From an uncultured Clostridia bacterium (lineage in GTDB: Bacteria; Bacillota; Clostridia; Oscillospirales; CAG-272), in NCBI GenBank assembly GCA_944381115.1, contig CALWJV010000001.1, positions 1-64,000 of the forward strand: a stretch of 64,000 bases of DNA, read 5' to 3'. Made by a program: the position numbers and the translations under genes. This document shows positions 17,947 to 23,464 of the stretch, piece after piece. The notes below the pieces were generated by a model. That model saw only the letters and a program-made list of their open reading frames with translations. It searched no databases and was not told where the DNA came from. Position 1 is the first letter of the stretch. Each line of letters starts with the position of its first letter.

Positions 17947-19719
17947 CTACTGCATTTCTATTATGTATTTCTCGGAATATTCTTTGACTTTTTTATCGTA
18001 ATTTTTGTTATCGCTTTTCAGACTCTGAGTAAAACTATGCATTCCAAGGCTGTTGTGTGATATCTCTATAATACATCCGGCAACATTTGAACAATGGTCT
18101 GCAACTCGCTCAAGATTCGTCAGTATGTCTGTAAGTATAAATCCGAGTTCGATCGTACATTCATTATTTTTAAGGCGGTTTATATGACGAAGTCTGACCT
18201 GCGCCTGCAATCTGTCTATTATCTCTTCAAGCGGCTCTACATTATATGCCGTATCTATGCTGTTATATTTTATACAATAAACAGCCATATCTGTAATTTC
18301 GTCAATCGCTGAAACAAGTACTTTTAAATCTGAATACGCGGCTTCAGAAAAACTTAATTTTTTTGTATGCATTTCCTGTGCCGATTCCGATATATTTACC
18401 GCATGATCGGAAAGACGTTCAAGATCACTTATAAGGTGAAGCATTTTTGTAACCTCAATTCCGTCCTGAGCGCTAAGATCTTTAGAAGAAAGTTCCAAAA
18501 GGTAAGAACCAAGTTCATCTTCATACATATCAACTTCATTCTCTTCATTTTGAATATTTTTAAAAATCTTTTCATCGTAATTTTTAATCAGATCAAGTGA
18601 TTTTTTTATTGACGCAACAGATGTTTCTGCCATATTTAAGGTTACAACACGGCACTGTTGAAGCGCTGCCGCGGGAGTTGCCATAAGGCGGCGGTCAAGA
18701 AGGATATTTTTTTCTTCATTCTTTTTATCCTTGACAATGAATGTTGCAAGTTTGCCGAGTTGCTTCCCGAAAGGAAGAAGCATTGCAGTACAAAGCAAAT
18801 TGAACATAGTATGAATGATCGCTATTGAAGAAGCCGTAACCTTTTCAGGAAAAGGAAGAACAAAGATCGCATCCACAATGGTATATGCAGTCAACAGTAT
18901 CACAGTACCGATTATATTAAAAGAAAGATGAACCCAGGCAACACGTTTTGCGTTTTTATTGGCGCCTATTGAAGAAATCATAGCCGTTGCACAAGTTCCT
19001 ATATTCTGACCCATAATAATCGGAATGGCAACTACAAAAGGAATACTTATATTCGTTGCAAGTGTTTGAAGGATTCCAACAGACGCAGATGAAGACTGAA
19101 TGATCGCAGTTATGATTGCGCCGGCAAAAACACCGAGGACCGGTATCCCTTCAAAAAACAGCATAAAATTTGTTAAAGCATTTATTATCACGTCACTGTC
19201 ATTTATAGCGTCGCTCATAATATCCATTCCATAAATAAGTGTAGAAAAGCCAAGAAGTATCAGGCCAAGATCCTTACGTCTAGGATTTTTAAGAAAACAG
19301 TACATGATGACACCTGCTACTGCAAGTATAGGTGTAAATGTCGACGGTTTACAGAATGTAAGGAGTATCTCAATGAAACTTGTCCCTCCGCTCTGTATAT
19401 CCATAAGAGAAAGTATCCAAGCGGTTACTGTGGTACCGACATTTGCACCCATTATGACCGGAATTGCATAAGGAAACGCCATTATACCGGAGTTTACAAA
19501 CCCTACCAACATGACTGTTGTTGCAGATGATGACTGAATTATTGCAGTAACACCTGCACCGAGAAGAAACCCTTTTATAGGATTTGAAGTGAGTTTGCTT
19601 AAAAGTACGCTAAGTTGATTTCCGGCGCTCTTTTCAAGCCCGTCACCCATAGTCTGCATTCCGAAAAGAAAAAGAGAAACTCCTGCAAGCATTGTTAATA
19701 CGGGAAGTAAAATGTCCAT
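17947..19719 (-). CDS. Na+/phosphate symporter family protein with PhoU-like domain
   Basis: 590 residues, starting after GAAGGAAAAAA. The first 340 residues carry the duplicated Na/Pi-cotransporter (SLC34/NptA) fold, with QSSSATT at 62-68 and a second QSSSAS near residue 210; about eight to ten membrane segments. The C-terminal 220 residues are a cytoplasmic PhoU-like helical domain with two repeats (SDLERLSDHAVN and NLERVADHCSN). Members import phosphate driven by Na+. It is monocistronic. This architecture is common in Firmicutes and distinct from PstSCAB. Confidence 0.93.
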   Translation of the reverse strand: MDILLPVLTMLAGVSLFLFGMQTMGDGLEKSAGNQLSVLLSKLTSNPIKGFLLGAGVTAIIQSSSATTVMLVGFVNSGIMAFPYAIPVIMGANVGTTVTAWILSLMDIQSGGTSFIEILLTFCKPSTFTPILAVAGVIMYCFLKNPRRKDLGLILLGFSTLIYGMDIMSDAINDSDVIINALTNFMLFFEGIPVLGVFAGAIITAIIQSSSASVGILQTLATNISIPFVVAIPIIMGQNIGTCATAMISSIGANKNAKRVAWVHLSFNIIGTVILLTAYTIVDAIFVLPFPEKVTASSIAIIHTMFNLLCTAMLLPFGKQLGKLATFIVKDKKNEEKNILLDRRLMATPAAALQQCRVVTLNMAETSVASIKKSLDLIKNYDEKIFKNIQNEENEVDMYEDELGSYLLELSSKDLSAQDGIEVTKMLHLISDLERLSDHAVNISESAQEMHTKKLSFSEAAYSDLKVLVSAIDEITDMAVYCIKYNSIDTAYNVEPLEEIIDRLQAQVRLRHINRLKNNECTIELGFILTDILTNLERVADHCSNVAGCIIEISHNSLGMHSFTQSLKSDNKNYDKKVKEYSEKYIIEMQ

Positions 19720-19992
19720 TTTTTTCCTTCTTTCTTAATAATTTGTGTCTTAATATATTATTTTTTTACACGTTATATAACTATTTTAATATGAAATTAT
19801 GAATAAATATACAATATATTCCACATAACGTTCTTTTTTCACAAAAAACGGCATTCTGCACAATAAACAATTATTTAATTTATATTTTATAAAATAACTG
19901 TACAAAATAAAATTTATACTGTTTTATGCTACATATATAGCATATGGCACTGGTTTTTAACCTTGACTGTAAAATCATTTTTCTTATTTCCA
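19720..19992. other. AT-rich intergenic region
   Basis: No gene is seen. A small perfect hairpin TATGCTA/TAGCATA lies near 19926-19945. The promoter for the minus-strand symporter gene presumably lies in the left half but no clean pair of boxes is visible. Confidence 0.4.
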
Positions 19993-20021
19993 TTGACAAA
20001 ATCTTCTCATTATAATATAAT
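19993..20021 (+). promoter_or_regulatory. Promoter of the cobalamin-controlled operon
   Basis: TTGACA (19993-19998), 17 nt, TATAAT (20016-20021). Transcription would start about 10 nt before the riboswitch. Confidence 0.85.
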
Positions 20022-20029
20022 AAATCATG

Positions 20030-20232
20030 TGAAAAAGGGAATCAGGTGAAAATCCTGAGCGAGCACGTCGCCGTAAGCGTTAAAAAAGCAGTTTTTGTTT
20101 AAAAACTGCTTTATAGGAAAAACCGTATATTTCTGCCGCAAGAAATGAAACGCCATTGGATTTTTCAATAAATTATTTTGAAAATTCTGAGAAGGTCGGT
20201 TTTTTGACGTAAGCCGAAAGACCTTGCACATA
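20030..20232 (+). ncRNA. Cobalamin riboswitch
   Basis: The conserved parts of the B12-element appear in order: AAAGGGAATCAGGTGAAAAT then CCTGAGC, GCCGTAAGC, GCCATTGG, CTGAGAAGGTCGG and AAGCCGAAAGACCTTGC. A variable AGCAGTTTTT/AAAAACTGCT stem is inserted near 20085-20113. The downstream TTAATTT/AAAATTAA hairpin just before the AAGGAG of the first gene suggests translational control. It should switch off the two B12-related genes when adenosylcobalamin is plentiful. Confidence 0.93.
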
Positions 20233-20299
20233 AACAAAAATTTCTGCGAGCGCCTAATTTAATTTCTGTAAAATTAATTTAATAAGGAGAAAAAAGAAA

Positions 20300-20701
20300 A
20301 TGAAAAAAACAAAAATTTTAAAAAAATTCTTATTCATTTGTCTTTGCCTGATACTGACTGCGGCTACGGTATTTGCAATGGCAGCATGCACGGGTGAAGA
20401 AGGTAATTCCCAAGAAGTATCATTTACTTTAAAGGTGGTCACACTTGACGGAGCAGAAACTTCCACAGTCATAACAACGACTAAAAAAACTGTCGGAGAA
20501 GCACTTCTTGATAAAGGTATCATTTCCGGAGAGGACGGACAATACGGTCTGTATATTAAATCGGTAAACGGAATAACTGCCGATTACGATACAGATAAAA
20601 CTTACTGGGCATTTTATATTAACGGTGAATACGCCATGACCGGAGTCGATAAAACCGATATAACAGACGGTGCTACATATATGCTTAAAGTAGAAAAATG
20701 A
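20300..20701 (+). CDS. DUF4430 lipoprotein, probable cobalamin/corrinoid-binding
   Basis: 133 residues. The N-terminus is a lipoprotein signal with lipobox MAAC, cleaved before C30 or so. The mature part is one DUF4430 domain, the beta-grasp-like fold shared with the C-terminal domain of transcobalamin and intrinsic factor; the motifs GEALLDKGII, YGLYIKSVNG and YWAFYINGEYA are typical. It sits on the cell surface. Being directly under a B12 riboswitch and overlapping an ECF S-component gene by 4 nt makes a corrinoid-capture role likely; the binding itself is inferred from fold and context. Confidence 0.85.
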   Translation: MKKTKILKKFLFICLCLILTAATVFAMAACTGEEGNSQEVSFTLKVVTLDGAETSTVITTTKKTVGEALLDKGIISGEDGQYGLYIKSVNGITADYDTDKTYWAFYINGEYAMTGVDKTDITDGATYMLKVEK

Positions 20702-21210
20702 TAAAAAACAAAACACGGGAACTGATTCTGTTTTCTTTACTCGGTACAACAATGTTCGTTTCAAAAATAATAACAGAAGCATTGCCTAACATACACCTTA
20801 TAGGACTTTTTATAGTTGCCTTTACAGTAGTATTCAGGGTAAAAGCCCTCATACCGATATATGTTTTTGTATTTTTGACCGGTCTTTACGGAGGTTTTTC
20901 TTTTTGGTGGCTACCTTATCTTTACATTTGGGATATTCTCTGGCTTATGGTAATGATAATGCCAAAAAACTTGCCGGCAAAATTAGCAGCACCGTTATAT
21001 ATGGCAGTATCAGGAATATTCGGGCTTTTATTCGGAACACTTTACTCGCCTGCACAGGCCCTGCTATTTGGATATAATTTTGAAAAAACGATTGCATGGA
21101 TCATTGCAGGACTTCCCTATGATATGATTCATGCGATAAGTAACTTTTTAATAGCAACATTGACTCTCCCGCTTATCAAAGTGCTTAAAAGAGGAATAAA
21201 AAGCATGTGA
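20698..21210 (+). CDS. ECF transporter S component, probable corrinoid specificity
   Basis: 170 residues with about six membrane segments, the size of ECF S components. Motifs such as LFSLLGTTMF at the N-terminus and WIIAGLPYDMIHAISNF near the C-terminus fit this family, with the Ala/Gly-rich first helix that docks on EcfT. The ATG overlaps the DUF4430 stop (ATGA). No EcfA/EcfT genes are nearby, so it presumably uses a shared energising module, as group II S components do. The riboswitch indicates cobalamin or a precursor as substrate; sequence alone does not say which. Confidence 0.82.
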   Translation: MIKNKTRELILFSLLGTTMFVSKIITEALPNIHLIGLFIVAFTVVFRVKALIPIYVFVFLTGLYGGFSFWWLPYLYIWDILWLMVMIMPKNLPAKLAAPLYMAVSGIFGLLFGTLYSPAQALLFGYNFEKTIAWIIAGLPYDMIHAISNFLIATLTLPLIKVLKRGIKSM

Positions 21211-21289
21211 GATAAACTCATATCACAGTATAAAATCACAGTATAAAAATATTTTTGCACCGATATGTGCATGTGAAACGGAGGAATTT

Positions 21290-23464
21290 ATGAAATTAAG
21301 CGATATCTTCGGAAATGCTAAATGGATAGGAACAAAAGACAAGGACATTTCCCCGATAATAAGGGACTCTTTCATTCTTTCAAAAGTATATGAAAACATT
21401 AAAATTAATATCATAGGACTTGGCGGATACATTCTTTACATAAACGGGAAAAAAGCAACGGATAAATATTATCTACCGCTCAATTCCGATTTTGAACCGC
21501 GAAAAAATTATCCCGCAGGCGAGGTGCTGTCCCACAGAATTTACTCCGACAGTTTTGAAATTTCTCACCTTCTCAAAAAAGGAAAGAATACTGTTACCGT
21601 TATTTTAGGTGACGGTTGGTACTCCAGAAAAAACTCTTCGTGGGAAGATACATGCATAACTTACGGAAACAAAAAATTGATATACCGTATATTTGATGAA
21701 AAAAATGATATTCTGCTTTCGGGTATAAAGGCAAAGTATAATATCTCTTACGTAAAGGAATGTAATTTTTTAACCCACGAAATACAGGACTATACAGGTT
21801 TTTCCGAAGATTTTTTTATGACTGAGTACGATGATAGCAAGTGGAAAAACGCCGTTGAAGAAGAAGCCCCGAATACCGAATATTATTTTTCAGACTGTCC
21901 CCGTGACAGCGTTTCTGAAAAAATCACTCCTGTAAAAATTAAAAATATGGACGGTTCGGTAATATACGATGCCGGAAAAAATCTTTCCGGCATCCCGCTA
22001 TTACGGTCCGGAAAAGCGGGACAATCTGTAACAGTTCTTTTTTCTGAAGAACTTGATAAAAACGGCGCGCTTGATATGAAATACAATCACGGGCAACGCT
22101 TCGTTTTTACCGCAGACAAAGAAGGCAGAATAATTGCACCTTCTTTCGTTTGGTTCGGTTTCAGATACTTTTCTGTATCAGGTAATGCAGAAGCAATATC
22201 GGTTTATAAGATTCACTCTGACGTAAAAATATCATCGTCATTTAATTCAAACAGTGAAATATTAAACTGGATATACGGTACTTATCTAAATACTCAACTT
22301 TGTAATATGCATGAAGGAATTCCTTCCGACTGTCCGCACATTGAACGTAAAGGCTACACCGGTGACGGTCAACTTTGTGCAAAATCCGCAATGCTTACCC
22401 TTGATGCAAAAGAATTTTATAAAAAGTGGATCTCAGATATTTCCGACTGCCAGGACAGAGTAAGCGGTCACGTTCAGTATACCGCCCCATATACAAAAAA
22501 CGGAGGAGGTCCCGGAGGATGGGGAATAGCCATCGTTAATGTTCCTATAGATTATTACATCCGATACGGTGACATAAATGAGGCTAAAAAACTTTACCCT
22601 CAGATGCTACGATTCTTTGATTACCTTGAGGCACACAGTCAAGAGCACTTGGTAACAAGCGATATTCCGGGTGCATGGTGCCTTGGCGAATGGTGTACTC
22701 CCGGTCCGGTAATTTTGCCTGCGCCGTTCGTGAATAATTATTTTTATATAAAAGGTCTTACAAAAGTCATCCGTCTTGCTGAACTTATCGGAAAAGATCA
22801 AGATATACCGTATCTTGAAAAAAAACTTGCTGAACGTAAATCTGCAACAACCGCTGCTTACTTCAACACTTTTGACAGTAATTTCATAGGGAATGTTCAA
22901 GGTGCAAACGCCTTTGCTCTTGACATAGGACTTGGAAACGAAAAAACAAAGAAAAATTTTATTGATTATTACAAAAAAAATACTTTTTATGATACCGGTA
23001 TCTTCGGTACCGAGATAGTTACGCGGCTTCTATTTGAATATGGAGAAGCGGAAACTTCATTCAAACTATTAACATCTGAAGTACCGGAACGAAGTTTTGG
23101 GTACTGGAAAAATACTTCTGCCACCACATTTAGAGAAGAGTGGGGTGTTGCACGATCCAATAATCACCCGATGTTTGGCGCAATAATCGCTCTTTTTTAC
23201 GAATATATTCTCGGAATTAATCAGGAAAAAGGGTCAGTGGGATACAAATCACCTGTAATAAAGCCATTATTAATAAAAGGTCTTACAAATGTCTCCGGAT
23301 CTATTGAAACCAAGTATGGAAAAATTGAGGTTGAATATAATAACCTAAACGGAAAATTTACCCTTAACGTAAACATTCCTGATAAACTCACTGCTACGGT
23401 AATTTTACCAGACAAAAGTAAAAGCAATGTAAATGGAAAAGCAGTACTCACCTGTGATGTTTAA
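21290..23464 (+). CDS. Alpha-L-rhamnosidase-type glycoside hydrolase, family GH78
   Basis: 724 residues after an AACGGAGGAATTT site. An N-terminal beta-sandwich (about 1-300, YILYINGK) is followed by the (alpha/alpha)6 barrel. The GH78 signature appears as DCPHIERKGYTGDGQ (about 347-361; usual form DCPQRDERLGWTGD) and the C-terminal catalytic segment as TTFREEWG (about 612-619). A C-terminal beta domain ends the protein. It lacks a signal peptide, so it is cytoplasmic and acts on imported rhamnosides. It is monocistronic, 80 nt after the ECF gene, with its own terminator. Confidence 0.9.
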   Translation: MKLSDIFGNAKWIGTKDKDISPIIRDSFILSKVYENIKINIIGLGGYILYINGKKATDKYYLPLNSDFEPRKNYPAGEVLSHRIYSDSFEISHLLKKGKNTVTVILGDGWYSRKNSSWEDTCITYGNKKLIYRIFDEKNDILLSGIKAKYNISYVKECNFLTHEIQDYTGFSEDFFMTEYDDSKWKNAVEEEAPNTEYYFSDCPRDSVSEKITPVKIKNMDGSVIYDAGKNLSGIPLLRSGKAGQSVTVLFSEELDKNGALDMKYNHGQRFVFTADKEGRIIAPSFVWFGFRYFSVSGNAEAISVYKIHSDVKISSSFNSNSEILNWIYGTYLNTQLCNMHEGIPSDCPHIERKGYTGDGQLCAKSAMLTLDAKEFYKKWISDISDCQDRVSGHVQYTAPYTKNGGGPGGWGIAIVNVPIDYYIRYGDINEAKKLYPQMLRFFDYLEAHSQEHLVTSDIPGAWCLGEWCTPGPVILPAPFVNNYFYIKGLTKVIRLAELIGKDQDIPYLEKKLAERKSATTAAYFNTFDSNFIGNVQGANAFALDIGLGNEKTKKNFIDYYKKNTFYDTGIFGTEIVTRLLFEYGEAETSFKLLTSEVPERSFGYWKNTSATTFREEWGVARSNNHPMFGAIIALFYEYILGINQEKGSVGYKSPVIKPLLIKGLTNVSGSIETKYGKIEVEYNNLNGKFTLNVNIPDKLTATVILPDKSKSNVNGKAVLTCDV

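Follow-up and report, generated by a model that had tools for sequence, protein, structure and literature searches.

In the prevailing view, ECF S components bind their substrates unaided, without an extracytoplasmic partner, and the locus described here raises the question of what a lipoprotein encoded together with an S component, behind a cobalamin riboswitch, would contribute to corrinoid import. The locus lies in a 64,000-nucleotide stretch of DNA from an uncultured Clostridia bacterium, which was analysed as a whole and is referred to below as the window. As a preliminary description of this DNA had stated, the riboswitch, the DUF4430 lipoprotein gene, and the S component gene are all present at this place, and the two genes overlap by 4 nt, the stop codon of the first and the start codon of the second sharing ATGA at 20698-20701. 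Our sequence analysis showed the following architecture:

19993..20021, + strand: sigma-70 type promoter, TTGACA-17-TATAAT, 12 of 12 consensus positions (a consensus match only)
20002..20244, + strand: cobalamin riboswitch aptamer (RF00174), Infernal 30.1 bits, E 9.3e-6 (a value that varies with the length of the stretch searched), fold z -2.4
20251..20290, + strand: probable expression platform, with predicted pairing of 20251-20255 with 20285-20289
20300..20701, + strand: DUF4430 lipoprotein (CbrS-type), 133 aa, PF14478, lipobox MAA-C, Cys30 codon at 20387-20389
20411..20698, + strand: predicted stand-alone transcobalamin-type beta domain, residues 38-133, from the AlphaFold2 model and PDB matches
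20698..21210, + strand: ECF S component, CbrT (cobalamin) family by sequence match to 6fnp, with an S-component fold, 170 aa

A transcript from the promoter would begin at the riboswitch. The aptamer matches positions 1-189 of the RF00174 model in Infernal, and its score falls short of the 31.5-bit Rfam gathering score by 1.4 bits, that score being a listing threshold and not a biological trait; a default scan at the gathering threshold therefore misses it. A leave-one-out nhmmer model, built from 44 riboswitches that precede DUF4430-CbrT genes at related loci, the copy in the window being left out, found its sole match in the 64-kb window at 20026-20229 (E 9.4e-21; next, E 0.33), and the riboswitches at orthologous loci reach up to 111 bits against RF00174. 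Taken together, the full-length model match with its conserved core, the significant E-value, and the homology to gathering-level members confirm, by sequence comparison, that the cobalamin riboswitch at 20002-20244 is real.

In the pairing predicted directly past the aptamer, the 3' partner falls within AAGGAG (20285-20290), the ribosome-binding site, and a search of 19700-21400 gave no terminator-like site on the + strand. Together these observations make translational control the likelier mode; by this model, the riboswitch would act on translation. Further along the same strand, an alpha-L-rhamnosidase gene (window 21290-23464) begins 79 nt past the S component and, with no + strand terminator-like site between the two, read-through of the riboswitch transcript into this gene is possible.

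The S component and the transport machinery of its host

Neither Pfam nor NCBIfam assigns a family to the 170-aa S component, and its identity therefore rests on a match to the PDB entry 6fnp, which we take to be the published crystal structure of ECF-CbrT from Lactobacillus delbrueckii (its title in the PDB table reads 'membrane protein'). In a single-sequence phmmer search of the PDB, 6fnp was the sole match, and the similarity to L. delbrueckii CbrT at this level is weak (E 4.7e-5). A profile of 25 relatives, in turn, matched positions 2-165 of the 167 in 6fnp with an E-value of 1.3e-25 and nothing else up to E 1, the RibU, ThiT, BioY, FolT, and PanT structures all being present in the PDB searched. 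Judged by these searches, the S component belongs with CbrT, an experimentally proven B12 S component, and the earlier expectation of a corrinoid rather than a folate or riboflavin family is borne out by a sequence that matches CbrT and no other S component.

The predicted structure consists of five long helices (pLDDT 90.7) and resembles FolT, RibU, BioY, PanT, and ThiT at Z 11-14, whereas a Foldseek search of the PDB with the CbrT model returned weak S-component matches only (E above 3), with 6fnp outside the short list; the CbrT family call therefore comes from the sequence, and the structure gives the S fold only. An AxxxA motif in helix 1 serves EcfT docking and is typical of S components but not universal among them; at residues 17-21, the consensus of 45 relatives reads AxMYA and the window S component has TTMFV. 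L. delbrueckii CbrT binds and transports both cobalamin and cobinamide, and its ECF-CbrT complex, without the lipoprotein, supported B12-dependent growth and nanomolar uptake (PMC5997447). By homology, the window CbrT would transport cobalamin or cobinamide likewise.

The S component is of the group II ECF type and is separate from the shared EcfA1-EcfA2-EcfT module: no EcfT or EcfA gene was found near 20698-21210, and the one EcfT gene of the host lies between two EcfA genes on a different contig (C14), giving the shared module that an S component of this type requires. A family-by-family search of the host genome, which is 95% complete, found neither CbiD nor a BtuF-type binding protein (PF01497), while MetH and a methyltransferase-type corrinoid protein are present. 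With CbiD absent, the host apparently lacks B12 synthesis. CbiD was found in 3 of the 101 CbrT-bearing genomes of the order versus 55 of the 194 without CbrT (p 2e-8 by Fisher's test, with kinship ignored). On a further host contig (C8; L113:1907-2875), an ECF S component (PF12822) is fused to DUF1893 (PF08973) 47 nt downstream of metH and is possibly tied to methionine synthase cofactors; given this second S component beside metH, the DUF4430-CbrT pair may not be the sole corrinoid route.

The DUF4430 lipoprotein and its beta-domain fold

The lipoprotein matches PF14478 (DUF4430) with an E-value of 3.5e-10, its 40.6 bits exceeding the cut-off of 23.8, and all 45 relatives match this family too. 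The lipobox MAA-C30 lies in its signal peptide, with Cys30 invariant in 45/45 relatives. Its AlphaFold2 model, in which pLDDT exceeds 95 across residues 41-133, comprises strands 40-47 and 53-60, helix 65-71, a hairpin (75-80/83-89), and strands 102-107 and 126-132, that is, a beta-grasp fold with a beta-hairpin insert after the helix, as in the transcobalamin-like SLBB clade. The best structural match in the PDB is 3u7z (Z 17.7), a Ruminococcus gnavus DUF4430 protein (RUMGNA_00854) that is titled putative metal-binding; no other close relative has a solved structure. It is followed by haptocorrin, transcobalamin, and intrinsic factor at Z 13-14 over 94-104 residues, with the next unrelated family at 6.8, and the DUF4430 sequence profile reaches human transcobalamin-1 (4kki) at E 4e-4. 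According to the profile and the model, the lipoprotein is thus by homology a stand-alone transcobalamin beta domain, without the alpha domain. The preliminary description had called the protein transcobalamin-like and the arrangement analogous to transcobalamin; the likeness holds, in that the fold is that of the corrinoid-holding beta domain, and the relationship is homology of one domain, not just analogy.

Because 3u7z belongs to the same DUF4430 group by both sequence and fold, corrinoid is a better guess at the ligand than metal. A beta-grasp fold by itself is no proof of corrinoid binding, and we infer that the lipoprotein would bind corrinoid, contact CbrT, and hand the ligand over in its direction. 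The isolated beta domain of transcobalamin binds Cbl and Cbi at the same site (PMC5599065), and in animals this domain binds cobalamin first, the alpha domain then closing on the loaded beta domain in a Cbl-dependent assembly (PMC5599065; PMC11107200). Unlike the human transcobalamin group, with whose beta domain its own is homologous, the window protein lacks the alpha/alpha toroid and is membrane-anchored, and it is partnered with an S component instead of a toroid domain or an endocytic receptor.

The linker past the lipid anchor is 9 residues long in the window protein (median of 28 in the 45 relatives), and the lipid anchor and short linker hold the lipoprotein close to the membrane rather than at the outer surface of the cell, which corrects the earlier term 'surface' lipoprotein. 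Roughly one in three DUF4430 proteins linked to CbrT (L064-L104) has an uncleaved N-terminal membrane anchor instead of the lipobox.

Conservation and riboswitch control of the pair

To place the window pair among its relatives, we used 295 genomes of the same order, in which 103 CbrT-like loci (44 bits or more) were found in 101 genomes. A DUF4430 gene lies directly upstream in 100 of these 103 loci, with a gap of -90 to +20 nt in 97, the counts being taken per locus from relatives that share ancestry. Three loci have no intact pair: the frame is broken at L028, where a stop codon interrupts the CbrT gene (1501-1980), and L043 and L051 are without DUF4430. At L043 (3522-4513, reverse orientation), the CbrT gene lies behind a peptidyl-prolyl isomerase gene. 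No other recurrent neighbor was found across the 103 loci, and the DUF4430 and CbrT genes are therefore the unit. Pairing was similarly seen at 76 of 79 loci in a second collection, of named genomes, which was retrieved with a closer set of 7 CbrT sequences and overlaps the first in part (L129 is a first-set genome). No ORF in this second set was matched by both the DUF4430 and the CbrT profiles, and a candidate fusion of the two in a 403-aa frame at L103 was ruled out, DUF4430 lying in a different frame. Sequence comparison thus showed the pair to be conserved and not a chance association.

DUF4430 is commoner than CbrT, occurring in 211 of the 295 genomes, and therefore also serves elsewhere. 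In a sample of the phylum, same-group DUF4430 stood beside 0 of 15 S components of at least 210 aa versus 11 of 13 shorter ones, in a comparison whose length cut was chosen after the data were seen, whose flanks were 1.5 kb, and whose profile misses multi-domain DUF4430 proteins such as those of L106. The latter locus (L106:3601-16007; G249:C45) and the similar L109 and L111 represent a second kind of operon, under an RF00174 riboswitch, which encodes large surface proteins, two of them with DUF4430 (492 and 205 aa), and continues with EcfT (PF02361), a double EcfA ATPase, and a riboflavin-type S component (PF07155). DUF4430 seems, in addition, to serve a dedicated ECF transporter for B12 whose S component is from another family.

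An RF00174-like riboswitch precedes 45 of the 103 loci and an AdoCbl-II riboswitch (RF01689) another 32, for a total of 77; the 32 AdoCbl-II calls were made with nhmmer seeds drawn from matches in Infernal, of which several score below the Rfam cut-off. None was detected at the other 26 loci, some of which lie at contig ends, and Rfam at the gathering threshold found none over 18 loci, mostly those without a detected riboswitch. An RF00174-like or AdoCbl-II riboswitch was likewise scored at 64 of the 79 loci of the second collection, with nhmmer models that had been built from the first, partly overlapping set; reversed-sequence controls gave 0. A Subdoligranulum plasmid carries the DUF4430-CbrT pair under a third model, RF01482. 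Both collections, when tabulated, therefore uphold the expected co-occurrence of the two genes under B12 riboswitches, and riboswitch control of the group is evident at this level. No other observation speaks as strongly for a corrinoid substrate as the finding that riboswitches of more than one class, all for the same ligand class, stand ahead of this gene pair. The class is also swapped within the genus of the window, with RF00174 at window 20002-20244 and AdoCbl-II at L004:2622-2724.

Lactobacillaceae plasmids encode S components that share 59-61% identity with the proven CbrT. In Lactobacillus intestinalis the genes run nrdJ - DUF4430 - S component - cobalamin adenosyltransferase; in Lactiplantibacillus plantarum, nrdJ - adenosyltransferase - DUF4430 - S component. 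The L. intestinalis arrangement matches the published L. delbrueckii order nrdJ-cbrS-cbrT-pduO (PMC5997447), and by synteny cbrS is therefore DUF4430. Like Lactobacillus CbrS-CbrT (PMC5997447), the window pair has a DUF4430 lipoprotein gene directly upstream of a gene for a full-length homolog of CbrT, of group II and with a shared ECF module; unlike it, the pair comes from gut Clostridia and, with neither nrdJ nor pduO beside it, forms a separate unit under a riboswitch of its own. A proteome paper labels such a protein an 'additional lipoprotein component of putative cobalamin ECF transporter' (PMC9963975), and Burroughs and co-workers in 2007 predicted that bacterial transcobalamin-like surface proteins beside CbiO/CbiQ scavenge B12 (PMC1796856). 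Those SLBB proteins, predicted B12 scavengers in non-makers, are extracellular and belong to the same clade, with the beta-hairpin insert after the helix (PMC1796856), whereas their operons have their own EcfA/EcfT and often encode multi-domain proteins, in contrast to the one short domain and solitary S component of the window. The window pair falls within this already predicted kind, of which, given the published CbrS naming, database annotation, and the 2007 prediction, it is a further case. The preliminary description did not say whether the pair is characterised; cbrS-cbrT is already named in the literature (PMC5997447), while for the lipoprotein half, CbrS, no published function was found in the literature searched.

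Proposed corrinoid import and its alternatives

The locus is probably a unit for corrinoid import of the CbrS-CbrT type that is repressed by B12; in it, the lipoprotein would capture corrinoid and present it to CbrT. When corrinoid is plentiful, the leader RNA would bind it and hide the ribosome-binding site, as the riboswitch family and the predicted pairing suggest; when it is scarce, the site would be freed, and the lipoprotein and CbrT would be made together. Tethered outside the membrane by its short linker, the lipoprotein would then probably bind the scarce corrinoid weakly and quickly and most likely present it to CbrT, raising the rate or the affinity of capture, and CbrT would dock in the membrane on the single shared ECF module (EcfA1-EcfA2-EcfT, encoded elsewhere) and import the corrinoid. 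Since the published CbrT transports B12 without CbrS, the lipoprotein is probably an accessory, non-essential in L. delbrueckii (PMC5997447), and the two-part uptake system that the preliminary description had envisaged is supported in part.

A more specific arrangement, which we put forward tentatively as possible but not probable, is that the corrinoid is clamped between the lipoprotein and CbrT, with CbrT replacing the transcobalamin alpha domain. The beta domain would first take up the corrinoid and, once loaded, dock on the outer face of the S component. If true, this would be a transcobalamin split in two, with a membrane importer as its second half, and, judged by the literature searched, a substrate-binding-protein step new for ECF S components.

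Bacteroides BtuG, the fold of which is presumably unrelated to that of the window lipoprotein, sits at the Gram-negative outer membrane, unlike the window pair, and its binding is characterised. BtuG-BtuB works in a similar manner, as a lipid-anchored B12 binder (putative in the window) adjoining a B12 importer (PMC6143338, PMC10404256).

Gut cobamides are diverse, which counts in favor of the view that the pair salvages cobinamide or other cobamides and not cobalamin itself. This view, which we hold to be doubtful, also draws on the uptake of both Cbl and Cbi by L. delbrueckii CbrT (PMC5997447) and on the binding of Cbi at the Cbl site of the transcobalamin beta domain (PMC5599065), but the sequence does not separate these ligands, and the upper pathway gene CbiD is absent in the host. 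We find it unlikely, and somewhat more so, that CbrT alone binds and imports corrinoid, with DUF4430 partnering CbrT otherwise, by closing its outer face, stabilising it, or excluding competitors: although L. delbrueckii CbrT functions without the lipoprotein in E. coli and proteoliposomes (PMC5997447), a constant bicistron suits any CbrT partner, and the uncleaved anchor and short linker in about a third of the DUF4430 proteins suit a fixed neighbor, the fold specifically matches the beta domain that holds cobalamin, and this domain binds cobalamin by itself (PMC5599065). Lastly, a weaker relative of the S component in another operon matches riboflavin-type S families, as it might if the S component carried a different vitamin and the riboswitch association were incidental. 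This we regard as highly improbable, given that CbrT is the sole PDB match up to E 1 in a search that included RibU, ThiT, BioY, FolT, and PanT, that several cobalamin riboswitch models match ahead of the pair across genomes, and that the Lactobacillaceae synteny includes nrdJ and a cobalamin adenosyltransferase.

The beta-domain homolog at nearly every sampled CbrT locus makes the rule of unaided binding by S components testable for B12, and CbrS thereby gains a concrete candidate role. If true, the proposed capture and presentation of corrinoid by the lipoprotein would explain how gut Clostridia without B12 synthesis and BtuF compete for B12, and it would bear on the proposed acquisition by animals of transcobalamin-like proteins from Gram-positive bacteria (PMC1796856).
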